A stretch of DNA of 64,000 nt, from assembly GCF_037975445.1 (NCBI RefSeq), contig NZ_CP150254.1, positions 256,001 to 320,000 of the forward strand, written 5' to 3'. Shown here piece after piece: positions 48,261 to 57,189 of the stretch. This DNA comes from Peribacillus sp. FSL P2-0133 (lineage in GTDB: Bacteria; Bacillota; Bacilli; Bacillales; DSM-1321). A model generated the notes under the pieces. It did not search any database and was not told the DNA's origin. It worked only from the letters and a program-made list of their open reading frames with translations. The position numbers were made by a program, and so were the translations under genes. Numbering within the stretch: position 1 is the stretch's first letter; each line of letters starts with the position of its first letter.

Positions 48261-49945
<1,685 letters not shown>

Positions 49946-50022
49946 TGCCTAAATCCCTTATTAAGGGGTTTAACGAGGATTCAGAATGAATGCTCACCTA
50001 ACATGTGAATATCTTTAAAGTT

Positions 50023-50065: not shown

Positions 50066-50423
50066 TTGAATTCGGTATGTCCTAGTCATTGTTGGATTTT
50101 TTTAATTCCTGTACCTGCTTGATCTGTAATGATGTATGCGTATGCCTGAATGGATGCAACGTAATTTTCTTGTTGTTATGCGGTAATTTCTTAAGAAGAC
50201 GTTGTAATCGTATTGCAGGCAGTTTTTGCACCAATGTATATCCCTCTGGTGAAGTGAAGACAAAGTTTTCATCCATGTAATGATGCCTGTTTTGAATTTT
50301 CATTTTATTTTGCTGTAGTAGATGCCTTTTTAATAACTTCATGACCTGATCGTCCATCAAAATGGTAAATCGCCTAGGGGATGTAAAGGTAAACTTCATA
50401 CATCCAATTTCAACGAAAGACAT
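50066..50423 (-). pseudogene. Tyrosine integrase remnant A (C-terminal half)
   Basis: The frame contains FTFTSPRRFTILMDDQVMKL, NRHHYMDENFVFTSPEGYTL, LVQKLPAIRLQRLLKKLP and the catalytic HPFRHTHTS (HxxR). After this the frame slips and continues in another phase as GTGIKKIQQ, stop, LGHTEFK. The N-terminal domain and catalytic tyrosine are missing. It lies about 120 bp inside the left att site with its 3' end toward it, where an island integrase normally sits. It is non-functional. Confidence 0.88.
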
Positions 50424-50585: not shown

Positions 50586-50599
50586 TGTTAACGCTTACA
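50586..50599 (+). promoter_or_regulatory. Probable cre site (CcpA operator)
   Basis: TGTTAACGCTTACA fits the consensus TGWNANCGNTNWCA at every position. It is 86 bp upstream of the regulator gene of the PTS operon, so carbon catabolite control by CcpA/HPr-Ser-P is likely. Confidence 0.8.
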
Positions 50600-50684
50600 T
50601 TTTTGCAGATTGAAGTTGCAAAAAGATGTACTAAACTATTTGAATATGTCCATTTATAATCAAATTATGAAAGGGGTTACTATC

Positions 50685-52793
50685 ATGAAAGAACGGTCTC
50701 AACGAGTACTTACCAGATTTTTGAAAGTAAATACCTTTTTAACTTGTGAGGATTTAAGTAAAGAGTTCAATATTAGTGAGCGTACTTTTCGAAACGAATT
50801 GGTTCTGATTAATAAATATCTGTCTGAAAATAATTATCCATCCATTACGACGATAAGAGGAAAGGGGTTGAAGTTAGACCTGTCTGATGTGGACCGCGGA
50901 AAGCTCCAATTGAAAATTGGTGATGATAGGGAAACGGATTATTATAGGCCCAATGAACGTTTTCTTGCCTTACTTTTAGATATTGCCGATACCACAAAAA
51001 GGACAATGCTTTTTGAAATGGAAGAAAAACTGCAGGTATCGAAAAGTACATTGGATGAGGATATGAGAAGACTTCGCCAGTTTTTAAAGGAATATGGTAT
51101 TTCTGTAGTGAGTTTAACGAAGCAAGGGATTGTATTAAAAGGAGATGAACGATCAATACGCACTATGTTGTACGACGTAATTAATAGTGTTACAGATATT
51201 TCCAATCTATTGGGGTACCGAGATAGAGATACTGTGAATACCTTTGCAGATCAATTTGTCCTTGATTATTTGGATACAAGTGCATTGAGGGTCATTGGAG
51301 AACATTATGACGAAGTCTTTGAAAAGTCTAGAGTAGAGATTAATCATGTATATCGAAATCAAAGCATTCTATTTTTAGGTATATGGGTAAGGCGGTTGCA
51401 AGAGGGAAATAACCTTAGGGAATTAGCCAAAGTTAGAGCCGAGATAAAAGAAGATCCTGTCAGAAATTTTGTGGATTTCATCTGTATGGAGTTTGGTTTA
51501 TATCCATCATTAAATGAAATAAAATATACTACCTTTACAATCGAATCTTTTAATCCAAAAGATATGAATAATTCATTCGATTGGGTTACCGCACAATTAT
51601 TAGCTATTCAATTAATTGAGCATGTAGAAAAAGTAACCAGAATCCCCTTTTCTCAGAGAGAAGAAGATTTGTATGAAGGTTTATATAAGCATATCACAGG
51701 GTTATTAAGCAGGGCGAAGAACGATTTACAGGTATTTAATCCGTTGAAAGAAACTATTAAGGAGTCCTTTGCCGAGATTTATCAGGCAGTCACATGCTTT
51801 AGTAAGCAAATAGAGGACTATATAAAAAAACCATTATCAGAAGATGAAATCGGGTTTTTGACCGTTTATTTTTCAACTTCTGCCAGCCAAATAAAACAGA
51901 AAGAACAATATGTTTATCAGGCTGTTGTGCTTTGTAATCATGGGATTTCAACTGGAAAGCTATTGGCTGCGAATTTGAAAGAGCAATTCAATATCGAGAT
52001 TGTAGCAGTATTGAGTTCGTTTGAATTAGCCTTTATTGACAAGCTTGATGTTGATTTAGTTTTTACGACCATTTCAATTGATTATCCAAGAAAACCCGTA
52101 TTATTGCTTAATCCAATATTAAGAGAAAGTGATAAGAAGGAAATTAAAGATTTTTTACTCAAAAATAAGAATAAGAGAAGGATCGTTTCCAATAAGTTAG
52201 ATGCCACAATGCTAATGCAGGATATTCTTATGTTAATTGTAGAAAGCGGCGGTACGGTAACACAGGAAAGCTATCAGAAAGTAGAAGAGACTTTTAAAGA
52301 ACATCATTTAAAAATTAATACAAGGGAGATACAGCCAATGTTGCAGGATATTTTGAGGGATTCCAACATTCTACTAAAGCAAGAATGTAAAGACTGGAAA
52401 GAAGCGATTACGAAATCTGCCCAGATATTGTTAACAGAAGAGGTCATTGAAGAGCGATATATAAACGCCATGATTAAATCTGTTGAAGAGTATGGGCCTT
52501 ATATAGTAGTAGGGAAGCATTTAGCGTTAGCACACGCAAGGCCAGAAGATGGAGTAAATAAATTAGGTATTAGTGTCATGACGTTAAAGGAACCGGTGAA
52601 TTTCGGAAATCCGGATAATGATCCGGTGAAAATTGTTTTTTGTCTAGCTGCAGTGGATTCTTATTCGCATCTAAATGTGATGAAAAATCTGATTGAGTTA
52701 ATTAATGATGAAGAGAAATTAGACCAGTTAATTACAGCACAAGATGTAACCATGTTTAATCAGGTGTTATATGGAAGTGAAGTAATGGAATGA
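50685..52793 (+). CDS. PRD-containing PTS transcriptional activator (BglG/MtlR/LicR type) with EIIA domain
   Basis: A 702-aa regulator. In order: N-terminal helix-turn-helix domains (about 1-90, with LTCEDLSKEFNISERTFRNEL), two PRD domains (about 180-390), an EIIB-like domain (about 400-490; AVVLCNHGISTGKLLAANLK, with a cysteine where PTS EIIB is phosphorylated) and a C-terminal EIIA-2-like domain (about 555-700) whose phospho-histidine is probably in HLALAHARPEDG. Such proteins are switched by HPr and the cognate EII. The ATG at 50685 follows aaagggg; the frame upstream to 50610 is not supported. The next genes encode EIIB and EIIC but no EIIA, so the C-terminal domain may also serve transport. 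Confidence 0.9.
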   Translation: MKERSQRVLTRFLKVNTFLTCEDLSKEFNISERTFRNELVLINKYLSENNYPSITTIRGKGLKLDLSDVDRGKLQLKIGDDRETDYYRPNERFLALLLDIADTTKRTMLFEMEEKLQVSKSTLDEDMRRLRQFLKEYGISVVSLTKQGIVLKGDERSIRTMLYDVINSVTDISNLLGYRDRDTVNTFADQFVLDYLDTSALRVIGEHYDEVFEKSRVEINHVYRNQSILFLGIWVRRLQEGNNLRELAKVRAEIKEDPVRNFVDFICMEFGLYPSLNEIKYTTFTIESFNPKDMNNSFDWVTAQLLAIQLIEHVEKVTRIPFSQREEDLYEGLYKHITGLLSRAKNDLQVFNPLKETIKESFAEIYQAVTCFSKQIEDYIKKPLSEDEIGFLTVYFSTSASQIKQKEQYVYQAVVLCNHGISTGKLLAANLKEQFNIEIVAVLSSFELAFIDKLDVDLVFTTISIDYPRKPVLLLNPILRESDKKEIKDFLLKNKNKRRIVSNKLDATMLMQDILMLIVESGGTVTQESYQKVEETFKEHHLKINTREIQPMLQDILRDSNILLKQECKDWKEAITKSAQILLTEEVIEERYINAMIKSVEEYGPYIVVGKHLALAHARPEDGVNKLGISVMTLKEPVNFGNPDNDPVKIVFCLAAVDSYSHLNVMKNLIELINDEEKLDQLITAQDVTMFNQVLYGSEVME

Positions 52794-52880
52794 GGAAAGC
52801 TGTGGTTATTACAATTGGTGTAGATGCAAGTAGGAGAAGATGAATTATATAAAACAAAAAACGAAAGAGGAGAGAGTGAC

Positions 52881-53189
52881 ATGAAAAAAGTAAATATCTT
52901 ATTTGTATGTGGAGCAGGTTTAGGAAGCAGTTTTGCTTGTCAAATGGCGGCAGAGGATGTATTAAGCAAGTTGGGTATTAATGCCAAGCTAGATCATAGT
53001 GATATCTCGTCTGCTGTTTCAGTAAAACCCGATATTATTATTACGGCACAGAATTTCAAATCCCAATTTGAGAAATTTTCAGTTGATCCAAAACAAACGA
53101 CAATTGTTTATTTGAGAAATATTGTATCTAAACTAGAGATTGAAGAAAAAATCACCCCGGTATTAAGGGAAAAAGGCGTTTTAGCTTAA
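52881..53189 (+). CDS. PTS EIIB subunit, ascorbate/SgaB-like
   Basis: A 102-aa cytosolic phosphocarrier. The phospho-cysteine is C10 in ILFVCGAGLGSSFACQMAAEDVL, the pattern of the ascorbate (UlaB/SgaB)-galactitol EIIB group. The ATG at 52881 follows gaggagag by about 8 nt; the frame upstream to 52824 lacks a site. It is followed after 35 nt by the EIIC gene. Confidence 0.92.
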   Translation: MKKVNILFVCGAGLGSSFACQMAAEDVLSKLGINAKLDHSDISSAVSVKPDIIITAQNFKSQFEKFSVDPKQTTIVYLRNIVSKLEIEEKITPVLREKGVLA

Positions 53190-53224
53190 AAATAAATAGA
53201 GATAGCTAGAGATGGGGGGAGAAA

Positions 53225-54514
53225 ATGGGTGTAGTCAACTTTATTATAGAGAATATTTTGACACAGGCATCAGTCACAATCGCGTTGATTGCTATGTTGG
53301 GGTTAATTTTGCAAAAGAAATCAACAGGGCAAGTTATTTCTGGTTCGTTAAAGACGATGTTAGGATTTATGGTATTGTCAGCCGGATCCAGCATTATAGT
53401 TGGTAGTTTAATGTATTTCGGTAAAATTTTTACAGAAGGTTTCCATATGCAAGGGATTATTCCTTCAATTGAAGCCATTAATGGCCAAGCAATGAATGAG
53501 TTAGGCTTGGGTCGTGATATCGCACTAACTTTCTTAGCTATCTTTGTTTTTAATATTTTAATTGCCCGGTTTACTAAATGGAAATACATCTTTTTAACTG
53601 GTCAGGCAATTCTTTGGATGGCTACTATGACAACAGTATTTGGTTACTTTGCAGGTTTACGTGGTGTTGCATTGATTTTAGTAGGCGGTTTCATTGGGGG
53701 CGTCTTTGCGGTAGCAATGCCTGCGATTGCACAACCATTTGTTCGGAAGATTACTGGTATGGATGATATTGCATTAGGACACTTTTGTACGGTTGGGTAT
53801 GTGTTTGAAGCAGGTGTAGCAAAACTAGTTGGGGGAAAAGGCGAAAAGAAAAAATCTGTTGAAGATTTGAAATTACCAGCTCAATTTGAATTCTTACAAG
53901 ATACCTATCTATCTTTGATGGTGGTAATGACTCCTCTTTATATTATTACAGCAGCGTTCGCAGGTGATGAGTTCGCTTCTAAAATATCAGAAAATACAAA
54001 CTACTTAATGTTTGCTTTCTTACAATCTATCCAATTCGTAGTTGGAGTGTATGTATTACTAGCAGGGGTTCGCTTATTACTAGGTGAAATTGTTCCGGCA
54101 TTTAGAGGGATTGCCATGCGGTTGGTTCCAAATGCAAAGCCTGCATTAGATTGTCCAGTCCTATTTCCATTTAGCCCTAATGCAGTCATTGTAGGGTTTA
54201 TCACAACTACTATAGGTTCAATTATTGCAATGTTTGTATTACCAGTCTTTGGGTTGGCAATGATCTTACCAGGTATTCTGACAGCCTTCTTCGCGGGTGG
54301 GACTGCCGGTATCTTCGGTAACTTAACAGGTGGTATTCGCGGTGCAATTATTGGTGGTATTGTACATGGTTTCTTCATTACATTATTACCAGCACTGTTA
54401 GTAACGACTTTCAATTCTATGGGATTTGTCAATGCAACAGCTACAGATGTTGATACAGTAACAGCTGCTTTACTATATGCATGGCTCATTGGTCCACTTT
54501 TAAAAGCTTTCTAG
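53225..54514 (+). CDS. PTS EIIC permease, UlaA/SgaT (ascorbate) family
   Basis: A 429-aa permease with about 11 membrane segments. It shares with UlaA the N-terminal IxGxLKTMLGFMVLxAGSxI pattern, the central SVEDLKLP stretch and the APxAxDCPVLFPFSPNAVIVGF region. The sugar passes through and is phosphorylated by EIIB. Members of this family are named for ascorbate, but specificity varies and cannot be told here. The gatgggggga site is 5-6 nt before the ATG. Confidence 0.92.
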   Translation: MGVVNFIIENILTQASVTIALIAMLGLILQKKSTGQVISGSLKTMLGFMVLSAGSSIIVGSLMYFGKIFTEGFHMQGIIPSIEAINGQAMNELGLGRDIALTFLAIFVFNILIARFTKWKYIFLTGQAILWMATMTTVFGYFAGLRGVALILVGGFIGGVFAVAMPAIAQPFVRKITGMDDIALGHFCTVGYVFEAGVAKLVGGKGEKKKSVEDLKLPAQFEFLQDTYLSLMVVMTPLYIITAAFAGDEFASKISENTNYLMFAFLQSIQFVVGVYVLLAGVRLLLGEIVPAFRGIAMRLVPNAKPALDCPVLFPFSPNAVIVGFITTTIGSIIAMFVLPVFGLAMILPGILTAFFAGGTAGIFGNLTGGIRGAIIGGIVHGFFITLLPALLVTTFNSMGFVNATATDVDTVTAALLYAWLIGPLLKAF

Positions 54515-54544
54515 GACGTTGAAAGAGAAAAGGAGGTTCAAGTA

Positions 54545-54943
54545 ATGTTTGGATTTGGTAAGAAAAAACCTAAAGAACCGAAAAAAGAAACAACCGAAAA
54601 GGTAGTGTTAACAGTAGAACGAAAAGAAGAGTTAGTACGTATTATCTCCACTAAAAAAGAAGAAGTAAATCAAACAGTTGGAGAAGAACAAGCAAAAATT
54701 CATGAGGAGATTGGCCTGGCATTTAATGAACTTGGTGAAGAAAATAATGCTATTGATTCGTTAGAAAAAAGTATTCAGGCTAAAAAGTCATTAGGCGAAG
54801 GTTACAAAACTTTATTAAAACTTTATAACAAGAAGCGTGCAGAAGCAGCAAAAGTGAATGATGAAGAATTATTACAGATATATCTAAAGAAAATGGATCA
54901 AATGATGCAAGTTTCTAAAGAGGTTACGCGTGGTGTTCGATAA
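54545..54943 (+). CDS. Small TPR-like protein of unknown function in the PTS operon
   Basis: A 132-aa soluble, highly charged protein. A lysine-rich N-terminus (MFGFGKKKPKEPKKETTEK) is followed by a helical region resembling tetratricopeptide repeats (IHEEIGLAFNELGEENNAI, then a repeat beginning DSLEKSIQAK). It lies 30 nt after EIIC and 40 nt before the aldolase, with its own aaggagg site, so it is part of the operon. No enzyme motif is visible. An adaptor or scaffold role is only a guess. Confidence 0.8.
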   Translation: MFGFGKKKPKEPKKETTEKVVLTVERKEELVRIISTKKEEVNQTVGEEQAKIHEEIGLAFNELGEENNAIDSLEKSIQAKKSLGEGYKTLLKLYNKKRAEAAKVNDEELLQIYLKKMDQMMQVSKEVTRGVR

Positions 54944-54983
54944 GGAAGAAAATAAAAGAAGTATAAAGGGAGAGTAATTGATT

Positions 54984-55850
54984 ATGTATATAACACTAAA
55001 AGAAGTAACACTTAGGGCTGAAGAATTGAATTATACAGTTGGGTCATTTAATGCACATAATTTAGAGATGTTACCTGATATGATACGTGCAGCAAAAGAG
55101 CAAGGAGCACCAATTATTATTCAAACAAGTATAGATACTGCGAAATACATTGGTCATGAAAATTTTGTTGCTGTATGTAAAACTATGGCCACAAATGAAA
55201 TGGTAGATGTGGTATTGCATTTAGACCATGCAAGGGATTTTGATGATATTAAAGAGGCAATCAATAAAGGATATACATCAGTGATGTTTGATGGTTCTCA
55301 TTTACCATTCAAAGAGAACATTATGAAAACAAGAGCAGTAGTAGAATATGCACACAAATATGGTGTTTCGGTAGAGGGCGAACTAGGGACAATTGGTGGT
55401 ACTGAAGAAGGGATTCATGTAGATGAGGATGATAAGGTTTATACTGACCCAAAAGATGCAGAAGAGTTTGTTAAAGCAACAGGGGTTGATGCTTTGGCCA
55501 TTGCAATCGGTACTAATCATGGTCAATATAAATCTAAAACAGAAGTAAATCTACCGCTATTAAAAGAAATCAATGCTGTAGTAGATGTACCTTTAGTTAT
55601 TCATGGAGGTACAGGTGTTAATGAAATGGATATTCATGAATTAATAAATAATGGGATTCGTAAATTTAATGTTGGTACTGAGTTGTTAGTAGCATGGACG
55701 AAAGCAGCGAAAGAAACATTCGGAGAAACAAAAGTAACTAAATCATTACGACATAATATTATTCCATGTAATAAGGCAGTAAAAGAAATTGTCAAACATA
55801 AAATTGGAATCTTCATGAATAAAGAAGACAGTACGCTTCAAGTAAAATAG
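54984..55850 (+). CDS. Class II fructose-bisphosphate/tagatose-bisphosphate-type aldolase
   Basis: A 288-aa zinc-dependent aldolase of the FbaA/GatY/KbaY family. Zinc and substrate residues are in VVLHLDHARDF, SVMFDGSHLPF, EGELGTIGG, AIAIGTNHGQYK, VIHGGTGV and GIRKFNVGTEL. It should cleave a phosphorylated keto-sugar into DHAP and an aldehyde. The ATG at 54984 is chosen over a TTG at 54978 because of spacing from aaagggagag. Being in the PTS operon suggests a dedicated catabolic role rather than glycolysis. Confidence 0.92.
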   Translation: MYITLKEVTLRAEELNYTVGSFNAHNLEMLPDMIRAAKEQGAPIIIQTSIDTAKYIGHENFVAVCKTMATNEMVDVVLHLDHARDFDDIKEAINKGYTSVMFDGSHLPFKENIMKTRAVVEYAHKYGVSVEGELGTIGGTEEGIHVDEDDKVYTDPKDAEEFVKATGVDALAIAIGTNHGQYKSKTEVNLPLLKEINAVVDVPLVIHGGTGVNEMDIHELINNGIRKFNVGTELLVAWTKAAKETFGETKVTKSLRHNIIPCNKAVKEIVKHKIGIFMNKEDSTLQVK

Positions 55851-55900
55851 TCAAAAAAAAGTTCATTTGGCATTTTTGTAAGAGTTGGAGAAGATGGATA

Positions 55901-55942
55901 ATAAAGAGAGTACGGGGTATTCCTAGTACTCTTTCTTTATTC
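55901..55942 (+). terminator. Probable terminator between aldolase and kinase genes
   Basis: Stem agagtac / gtactct (extendable with A-T pairs) with a 12-nt loop, followed by ttctttatt. It would separate or attenuate expression of the downstream kinase. Confidence 0.65.
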
Positions 55943-55963
55943 GTTAGATTATGAGGTGGTAAG

Positions 55964-56569
55964 ATGGATAAAGCCTTAATCTTATTAGCAGGTTTACCAG
56001 GAACAGGGAAAACCTACTTGAGTAATATCATCAATAGTAAATTAGGGTCATTTTATAATCTTTCTCAGGATGACTTGAAAGAATATTATTGTGATATATA
56101 TGGTTATCGTAATTTAGAAGAAAAGCAGAAGATAGAAAAGATAGCATGGGCGAAGTACTATGAAATAATGGAAAAGCAAATGCAAGTAGGCGACAATATT
56201 ATGTCTGATTATCCTTTTAGTCAGAAACAAAAGCCTCATATTCAGCAATTAGTAGATAGATATGGTTATGAGATCGTTACTATTCGGTTAATTGCAGATT
56301 TAGATATTTTGTTTGAACGGCAAAAAAAGCGAGATTTGGATCCGACAAGGCATTTGAGTCATATCGTGACTTCCTATAAAAAAGGGGATCATTTAGCTAA
56401 TAGAAGTAATGCAGATAATTTATTGATCTATGAGGAATTTATAAATAGATGTACAACAAGAGGATATGACACATTTGAATTAGGGAAATTATATGAAGTC
56501 GATGTATCAGATTATACAAAAGTGAATTATTCTAGGTTGTTGGAAGATATAGAACGGGGGATACATTAA
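55964..56569 (+). CDS. P-loop kinase-like ATPase (AAA_33 type)
   Basis: A 201-aa protein with Walker A GLPGTGKT at residues 10-17 and a following LSQDDLKEYYCDIYG segment, a layout seen in small-molecule and sugar kinases and in zeta-like or polynucleotide kinase folds. A lid-like RQKKRDLDPTRH lies near residue 125. It probably phosphorylates a small molecule. Its place after a PTS and an aldolase suggests the second phosphorylation needed for aldol cleavage, but no PfkB or GHMP features are present. A toxin-type kinase is an alternative. A gaggtgg site lies 6-7 nt before the ATG. Confidence 0.8.
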   Translation: MDKALILLAGLPGTGKTYLSNIINSKLGSFYNLSQDDLKEYYCDIYGYRNLEEKQKIEKIAWAKYYEIMEKQMQVGDNIMSDYPFSQKQKPHIQQLVDRYGYEIVTIRLIADLDILFERQKKRDLDPTRHLSHIVTSYKKGDHLANRSNADNLLIYEEFINRCTTRGYDTFELGKLYEVDVSDYTKVNYSRLLEDIERGIH

Positions 56570-57065: not shown

Positions 57066-57089
57066 GAATGGGCGGCATGATGTAATCAT
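57066..57089 (+). other. Right attachment site (duplicate of the groEL 3' end)
   Basis: An exact 24-bp copy of 49922-49945, preceded by unrelated sequence. It is not part of a chaperonin gene here. The flanking gccta...ccctt and the following ggggttt also resemble the sequence after groEL. Confidence 0.85.
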
Positions 57090-57189
57090 CGCCTAGAACC
57101 CTTGGTATATAGGGGTTTGTAAGGTGGAGATTAGTGAAATGCTAACTTTTTGCTAACTTTCAGTTTTTGAAACAACTTAATTTCACCAA

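Follow-up and report, generated by a model that had tools for sequence, protein, structure and literature searches.

Positions 50685 to 56569 of a 64,000-nucleotide stretch of DNA from Peribacillus sp. FSL P2-0133 (NCBI RefSeq assembly GCF_037975445.1, contig NZ_CP150254.1, positions 256,001 to 320,000 of the forward strand; the whole of this stretch is called the window) contain six intact co-directional genes, as judged from the map of open reading frames and from Pfam and NCBIfam profiles. In order, these encode a regulator, enzyme IIB (EIIB) and enzyme IIC (EIIC) of a phosphotransferase system (PTS), a helical protein of 132 amino acids, a class II aldolase and a P-loop kinase, which bears out the operon that an earlier reading of the letters alone (the sequence-only reading) had described at this site. 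The operon probably specifies a self-contained PTS pathway for a ketose, in which EIIB would be energised by the enzyme IIA (EIIA) domain of the regulator, and in which the kinase and then the aldolase would act on the incoming sugar phosphate. A more specific proposal, i.e., that the regulator is the obligatory EIIA of its own transporter and that the P-loop protein belongs to a new family of ketose-phosphate kinases replacing a PfkA-type enzyme, is slightly favoured. The best evidence for EIIB being energised by the regulator EIIA, and for the kinase as the source of the aldolase substrate, is an exchange of EIIA and kinase between two types of operon.

Two types of operon

The gene order seen in the window is kept in 36 distinct operons (type A) from Bacillales, Lactobacillales and Enterococcus plasmids, namely that of the window and those of loci L008-L029, L061, L077-L079, L106-L110, L113-L115 and L124. 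Here, "distinct" means lying on different contigs, and some may be close strains; L062, L111, L112 and L125 repeat L017, L027, L023 and L011, respectively, and were counted once. The sequence-only reading had proposed a search for the same gene order in other Firmicutes; as it recurs in 35 other distinct operons, the operon is not a product of chance. The EIIA domain of the regulator was detected in all 36 and the P-loop kinase in 35, and the maps of open frames show no separate EIIA within the type A operons. The first scan, of species genomes with the 132-residue protein as the query, gave 22 loci, all with regulator, EIIB, EIIC and aldolase in order; the P-loop kinase was present in 21, the contig of L025 ending after the aldolase. 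Frames are broken in three copies (L029, L079 and L109), and EIIB was not detected in L109.

Ten further operons (L059, L060 and L116-L123; type B) have the same EIIB, EIIC, 132-residue protein and aldolase. In each of the ten there is another regulator, then a stand-alone EIIA of 147 amino acids, and then a PfkA-like protein, and in none was a P-loop kinase found within the stretch (the best match per query was kept in this search for operon components). In a tree of 39 EIIA domains, those of the type A regulators, the stand-alone EIIAs, the EIIA of a second ula-type regulator of the window genome and E. coli UlaC form one clade (support 100/97), which is apart from FruA, MtlA and the EIIA of the type B regulators; an earlier tree, built without UlaC, agrees. 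The second tree left out MtlR and one EIIA of L028, both on long branches, and L121 is in neither. The type B regulators have an EIIA domain of their own (present in the two that were scanned), which lies far from the stand-alone EIIAs in the tree; as the separate gene was kept all the same, an EIIA domain in the regulator did not remove it there. We read this as one and the same EIIA function, which may be encoded as part of the regulator or by a gene of its own. The type B operons, with their stand-alone UlaC-type EIIA and a PfkA-like kinase in place of the missing P-loop kinase, lend support to two suggestions of the sequence-only reading: that the EIIA of the regulator may be the source of phosphate for EIIB, and that a second phosphorylation and an aldol cleavage may follow uptake.

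The EIIA domain of the regulator and other possible donors

Pfam recognises in the regulator HTH_11, an Mga helix-turn-helix (HTH), one PRD stretch only, and PTS_EIIA_2 (124 bits). The domain calls of the sequence-only reading were correct overall, except that the EIIB-like domain of the regulator falls below the Pfam cut-off and that the protein it called TPR-like is weakly so. The EIIA histidine and the EIIB-like cysteine are identical in 22 of 22 aligned regulators, that of the window included (L029 was left out). The EIIA domain shares 42% identity with E. coli UlaC and 26-27% with the MtlA and FruA of its own genome, and the EIIA of the MtlR-like regulator of that genome scores 43.9 bits compared with its 124. 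Domain conservation was compared in 32 regulators of 680-760 amino acids with a literal AHARP motif (L020 and the broken L029, L079 and L109 being excluded); the presence of H617 in 32 of 32 is biased by selection for AHARP, and the 22 of 22 given above is the fairer count. Among the eight regulators that are the most distant, identity is 49-63% in the EIIA domain and 25-45% in the HTH and PRD regions. The annotation of the regulator in L077 and L078 reads "PTS sugar transporter subunit IIA".

The window genome has five PTS_EIIA_2 domains, all of them within open frames of 635-733 amino acids and none stand-alone: in a FruA-like transporter (identified by eye), an MtlA-like transporter, the regulator described here, the second ula-type regulator and the MtlR-like regulator. 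EIIA-man domains are absent from this genome; the search did not extend to the EIIA-Glc and EIIA-Lac families. Thus, the statement of the sequence-only reading that there is no EIIA gene holds for the operon and, for the EIIA_2 and EIIA-man families, for a dedicated gene elsewhere in the genome. The second ula-type regulator belongs to another EIIA-less PTS of the ascorbate family, at about 4.774-4.779 Mb of the same genome (L030:8648-13533), which comprises this regulator with its UlaC-type EIIA, two nearly identical EIIBs of 88 amino acids, an EIIC and a HAD-like protein (identified by eye).

The main rival is cross-talk from MtlA or FruA: EIIB might be energised by the EIIA of one of these, or by that of the second ula-type regulator, while the EIIA of the operon regulator would serve for sensing only. 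This is an unlikely arrangement in our estimation. Such donors are at hand in the window genome, and EIIA-less PTSs of Bacillus subtilis are energised by the EIIAs of other transporters, according to statements in PMC6148471; the pivotal role there, however, is assigned by the same source to EIIAs of the glucose family, the EIIAs of MtlA and FruA share just the 26-27% identity given above, and a dedicated EIIA of the UlaC type is retained in the type B operons even though their genomes hold 5 to 20 EIIA_2 domains (among the matches listed, the two of the operon included). It is highly improbable that EIIB and EIIC transport little sugar and chiefly serve the regulator as a sensor, given that the downstream enzymes are conserved together with the transporter in both types of operon, although SacX of B. 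subtilis is described in PMC6148471 as mainly a sensor.

The preferred reading, in which the regulator EIIA feeds EIIB, also has to be weighed against several observations beyond these candidate donors. Some type A genomes other than that of the window do contain a stand-alone EIIA_2 gene, short frames being among the many matches listed for 27 further genomes. In the comparable ula2 operon of Streptococcus pneumoniae, strain G54 has an additional IIA subunit of the PTS, according to PMC4324149. The EIIB-like domain, too, exceeds the HTH and PRD regions in conservation (47-62% in the same eight distant regulators), so that a purely regulatory constraint could account for part of the EIIA pattern. 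UlaC joins the stand-alone EIIAs weakly (87/73), which makes no case for direct fusion or fission of one gene. Lastly, L017/L062 (Aneurinibacillus) has both kinases, and the two may therefore not be simple substitutes.

Proteins encoded by the operon

Table 1. Features of the operon and its surroundings; positions are those of the window.
Feature	Position	Strand	Description or basis
Direct repeat of 38 bp, left copy	49922..49959	+	3' end of groEL; likely attachment (att) site
Tyrosine-integrase remnant (putative), 113-residue open frame	50082..50423	-	integrase similarity; no Pfam match
cre-like (CcpA) site TGTTAACGCTTACA	50586..50599	+	perfect match to consensus
Conserved candidate operator / weak -35, TTGCA...AAGTTGCAA...ACTAAACT	50603..50637	+	16 aligned upstream regions
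-10 hexamer TATAAT	50655..50660	+	mostly conserved in aligned upstream regions
Regulator, 702 amino acids	50685..52793	+	HTH/Mga, region without a recognised first PRD, PRD (H336), EIIB-like (Cys417), UlaC-type EIIA
EIIA domain of regulator: candidate phospho-His H617, second His H662			conservation
EIIB, 102 amino acids, ascorbate type	52881..53189	+	PF02302; Cys in VCGAGLGSS conserved
EIIC, 429 amino acids, EIIC-GAT / NF009551 (PTS-Asc family permease)	53225..54514	+	profile matches
Small helical protein, 132 amino acids, weakly TPR-like	54545..54943	+	Pfam, AlphaFold
Class II ketose-bisphosphate aldolase, 288 amino acids, GatY/FbaA family	54984..55850	+	PF01116, 315 bits
RNA hairpin, aldolase-kinase spacer	55893..55945	+	stable fold
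P-loop kinase, 201 amino acids, AAA_33/AAA_18, predicted sugar-phosphate kinase	55964..56569	+
Direct repeat of 38 bp, right copy, 92% identical	57066..57103	+	directly after groEL in relatives without the operon

For EIIB, a longer frame opens at 52824, and the frames of most relatives start at the equivalent of 52881. EIIC matches PF03611 with 411 bits, NF009551 with 724.5 bits (cut-off 657) and the "ascorbate IIC" model NF006919 with 460.9 bits (cut-off 380), and is 70-99% identical across the 22 first relatives. The system has the EIIC type of the PTS-Asc (AG superfamily) transporters as well as a UlaC-type EIIA, the latter as a domain of the regulator rather than as a gene. The 132-residue protein matches TPR_8 at an E-value of 0.015 at best; its AlphaFold model consists of five helices, with a predicted local distance difference test score (pLDDT) of 85, and a Foldseek search with it gave nothing significant, the neighbours being weakly TPR-like (best E 0.04).

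The aldolase matches TIGR00167 with 271.7 bits (cut-off 215.6) and has the structures 4to8 and 1gvf as relatives in the PDB. It falls below the cut-offs of the fructose- and tagatose-specific models, scoring, for example, 296 against a cut-off of 383 bits for GatY (NF009374) and 290.9 against 343 for TIGR01859. The kinase is above the Pfam cut-offs of AAA_18, AAA_33 and Zeta_toxin; it is above that of no NCBIfam model, and no family profile of gluconokinase or PFK-2 is matched above its cut-off. Its gene overlaps the aldolase gene, or is 1 to 13 bases away from it, in several genomes.

The predicted pathway

The PfkA-like proteins keep R72, D127, R162, R243 and R252 in 11 of 11 sequences, and the product of the PTS is therefore likely to be a ketose with a terminal phosphate, given the roles of these residues in PfkA. 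For the flow of phosphate, the class of substrate and the direction of regulation, we infer the following scheme. The PTS would deliver a ketose with a terminal phosphate (6-phosphate or 5-phosphate), to which the P-loop kinase would add a second phosphate, thereby creating a ketose bisphosphate, and the class II aldolase would cleave this to dihydroxyacetone phosphate and an aldehyde phosphate. The EIIA domain of the regulator would feed phosphate to the EIIB of its own transporter, and uptake would drain phosphate from the regulator, bringing it into the activating state at the conserved promoter, while CcpA would repress through the cre site where this is present. In type B operons, the same steps would be served by a different regulator, by EIIA as a separate gene and by the PfkA-like enzyme at the kinase step.

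Alternatively, the aldolase might cleave the product of the PTS directly, and the P-loop protein, rather than being the pathway kinase, might have as its substrate the aldehyde product, a nucleotide or the end of an RNA. This is rather doubtful, despite the fact that the structural neighbours of the kinase include O-phosphoseryl-tRNA kinase and polynucleotide kinases, that PF01116 includes enzymes acting on mono-phosphates (IolJ), and that L017/L062 has the P-loop protein beside a PfkA-like kinase. In 10 of 10 type B operons, the P-loop gene is missing from the stretch and a PfkA-like gene is there instead. The alignment of the aldolase with bisphosphate aldolases covers almost the whole protein, the arginine of its SLR matching that of their DPR, a residue presumed to keep the role that it has in those enzymes.

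Ascorbate as a possible substrate

Ascorbate is an unlikely substrate, and the reading of the operon as one for L-ascorbate or a breakdown product of it, with the aldolase and the kinase as accessories, is given little credence here. What speaks for it is that EIIA, EIIB and EIIC are all of the ascorbate family, that the pneumococcal ula2 operon is induced by ascorbate, as stated in PMC4324149, and that the operon of L061 sits between ulaDEF and ulaG-transketolase. Of 18 genomes with the operon that were tested for UlaG, however, four had a match above cut-off, all of family f41 (0 of 12 outside f41), and in three of those four it is far from the operon. The f41 genomes G178, G882, G888, G926, G978 and G992 have gene neighbourhoods that look possibly streptococcal. 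In the window genome, the best match to UlaG has 30 bits compared with a cut-off of 306; the absence of the L-ascorbate enzymes noted by the sequence-only reading was confirmed for UlaG in the genome and for UlaD, UlaE and UlaF in the operon, within which these three were searched.

Among the 45 fetched operon stretches (7-25 kb), 44 lack ulaD, ulaE, ulaF and ulaG, so that versions with ascorbate-degradation genes, which the sequence-only reading had counted against itself, come down to L061 (family f41). There (L061:4157-17991), ulaD/E/F and a PRD regulator are upstream of the operon, and ulaG and a transketolase are downstream of it; ulaD/E/F, ulaG and transketolase follow each other as PMC3302838 describes for S. 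pneumoniae, and the operon therefore looks as if it had been inserted into a standard ula cluster. That cluster has an EIIA-like frame of its own next to it, of 187 amino acids and just upstream of the fetched stretch, and the case is accordingly read as one of adjacency.

Distribution and neighbouring genes

The distribution of the operon is patchy. Of 398 genomes of the class, 20 gave a match to the 132-residue protein at E ≤ 0.001, five of them a strong one (E below 1e-20); within the family, a match was seen for 6 of 43 genomes, which all belong to the genus of the window. This protein was the query by which most operons were retrieved, so that its constant presence in part reflects the search, and operons without its gene would be missed; the Enterococcus plasmid copies, found with the aldolase as the query, also have it. 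NF009551 was matched at E ≤ 1e-130 in 13 of 398 genomes of the phylum, and because the window genome alone was above the family cut-off, this model was not used for finding further operons. The protein search with the aldolase gave 10 Enterococcus plasmid records, of which three were examined: the plasmid-borne copies L077 (megaplasmid of Enterococcus raffinosus), L078 (megaplasmid of E. gilvus) and L079 (plasmid of E. faecalis, with broken frames). The DNA of the window operon has no near match among plasmids.

Neighbours that might name the sugar, if present in three or more of the first loci, were limited to permeases and an HPr paralogue (all but the latter identified by eye). The HPr paralogue follows the kinase gene in L009:10251-10517, L011, L014:6425-6691 and L015:10293-10538, as though a dedicated phosphate donor came with the system; there is a fragment of it in L012 and none in the window. 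Ribulose-phosphate epimerase, transketolase or phosphoketolase (identified by eye) flank L028, L029 and L061, and not most of the others.

Upstream region and spacer hairpin

Of 36 upstream regions, 11 (or 10 of the 33 that are distinct) contain a cre-like site in the strict form of the CcpA consensus, compared with 0.025 expected overall from mononucleotide shuffles; the other 25 lack it. The 11 belong to Peribacillus, Metabacillus, Mesobacillus, Niallia and the genus of the window, and all share similar upstream DNA. Simple scans for promoters and terminators were at or below the level of shuffled sequences, and the promoter assignment therefore rests on the 16 aligned upstream regions, which also share the ribosome site. 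A strong -10 hexamer with a poor -35 would fit an activator-dependent promoter.

The hairpin in the aldolase-kinase spacer is stable in all six spacers tried (those of the window, L010, L013, L015, L019 and L020; z from -1.8 to -3.9). This spacer is about 1-31 bases in the Paenibacillus and Saccharibacillus loci, L017 and L028, and is short or missing in several other loci. Rfam gave nothing above threshold around the operon.

A probable integrative element behind groEL

The operon lies within 7.1 kb bracketed by 38-bp repeats of the 3' end of groEL. Tyrosine integrases encoded next to groEL in three relatives share 41-44% identity with the 113-residue frame in this segment (E about 2e-17 when four sequences are compared), and in G1175, a genome without the gene for the 132-residue protein, groEL leads straight into the right flank of the window operon. 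In view of the repeats, this empty junction and the integrase-like frame, the operon was most likely brought in by an integrative element whose integrase has since been lost. In the other loci checked (L008, L009, L124 and L125), the operon does not have groEL as a neighbour. At the groEL site itself, relatives carry intact integrases, and groEL looks like an integration hot spot in the genus of the window.

Comparison with known systems

The logic of PTS, kinase and aldolase is already known from the tagatose pathway of Bacillus licheniformis and Klebsiella, as reported in PMC10101011. The D-tagatose pathway (TagTH, TagK and GatY) resembles the one proposed here in PTS uptake, in a second phosphorylation and in cleavage of a ketose bisphosphate by a class II aldolase. 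However, the product of the PTS there is the 1-phosphate, which is phosphorylated further by TagK (a tagatose-1-phosphate kinase), whereas here there is a transporter of the ascorbate family with a P-loop kinase like AAA_33. The ulaABCDEF-ulaG genes of E. coli encode EIIA, EIIB and EIIC of the same families, and the EIIA of the regulator shares with UlaC the 42% identity given above; UlaC is encoded by a separate gene there, UlaD, UlaE, UlaF and UlaG stand there instead of the aldolase and kinase, and E. coli UlaR is not known as a PRD protein. Activators of the MtlR/LicR type have the same HTH-PRD-EIIB-EIIA architecture, but their operons typically have a dedicated EIIA.

In Bacillales, Lactobacillales and Enterococcus plasmids, the operon described here points to an uncharacterised ketose pathway and to what is likely a new family of kinases. 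If the proposal is true, the flux of sugar and the control of genes would share one phosphorylated histidine. The two types of operon can be seen as a natural swap, which makes the idea of a dual role for the regulator directly testable with few purified proteins.

The closest likeness is to SP2129-31 of S. pneumoniae, i.e., the ula2 operon (ulaR2-ulaB2-ulaA2-tktN-tktC), which also has EIIB and EIIC of the ascorbate family without an EIIA gene and is led by a PRD regulator with EIIB-like and EIIA-like domains. It differs in having the two halves of a transketolase where the operon described here has an aldolase, a kinase and the gene for the 132-residue protein, and the substrate proposed there is a ketopentose or ascorbate. 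That the EIIA of the regulator energises its own transporter was suggested for SP2129-31 in 2012, in passages of PMC3302838 that offer the idea without a test. Among the titles and abstract openings of the literature covered, none describes the present gene set or a test of a PRD-regulator EIIA powering a transporter. The idea of the dual role has thus been in print since at least 2012, and what the two types of operon appear to add to it is good comparative evidence for the proposed mechanism.

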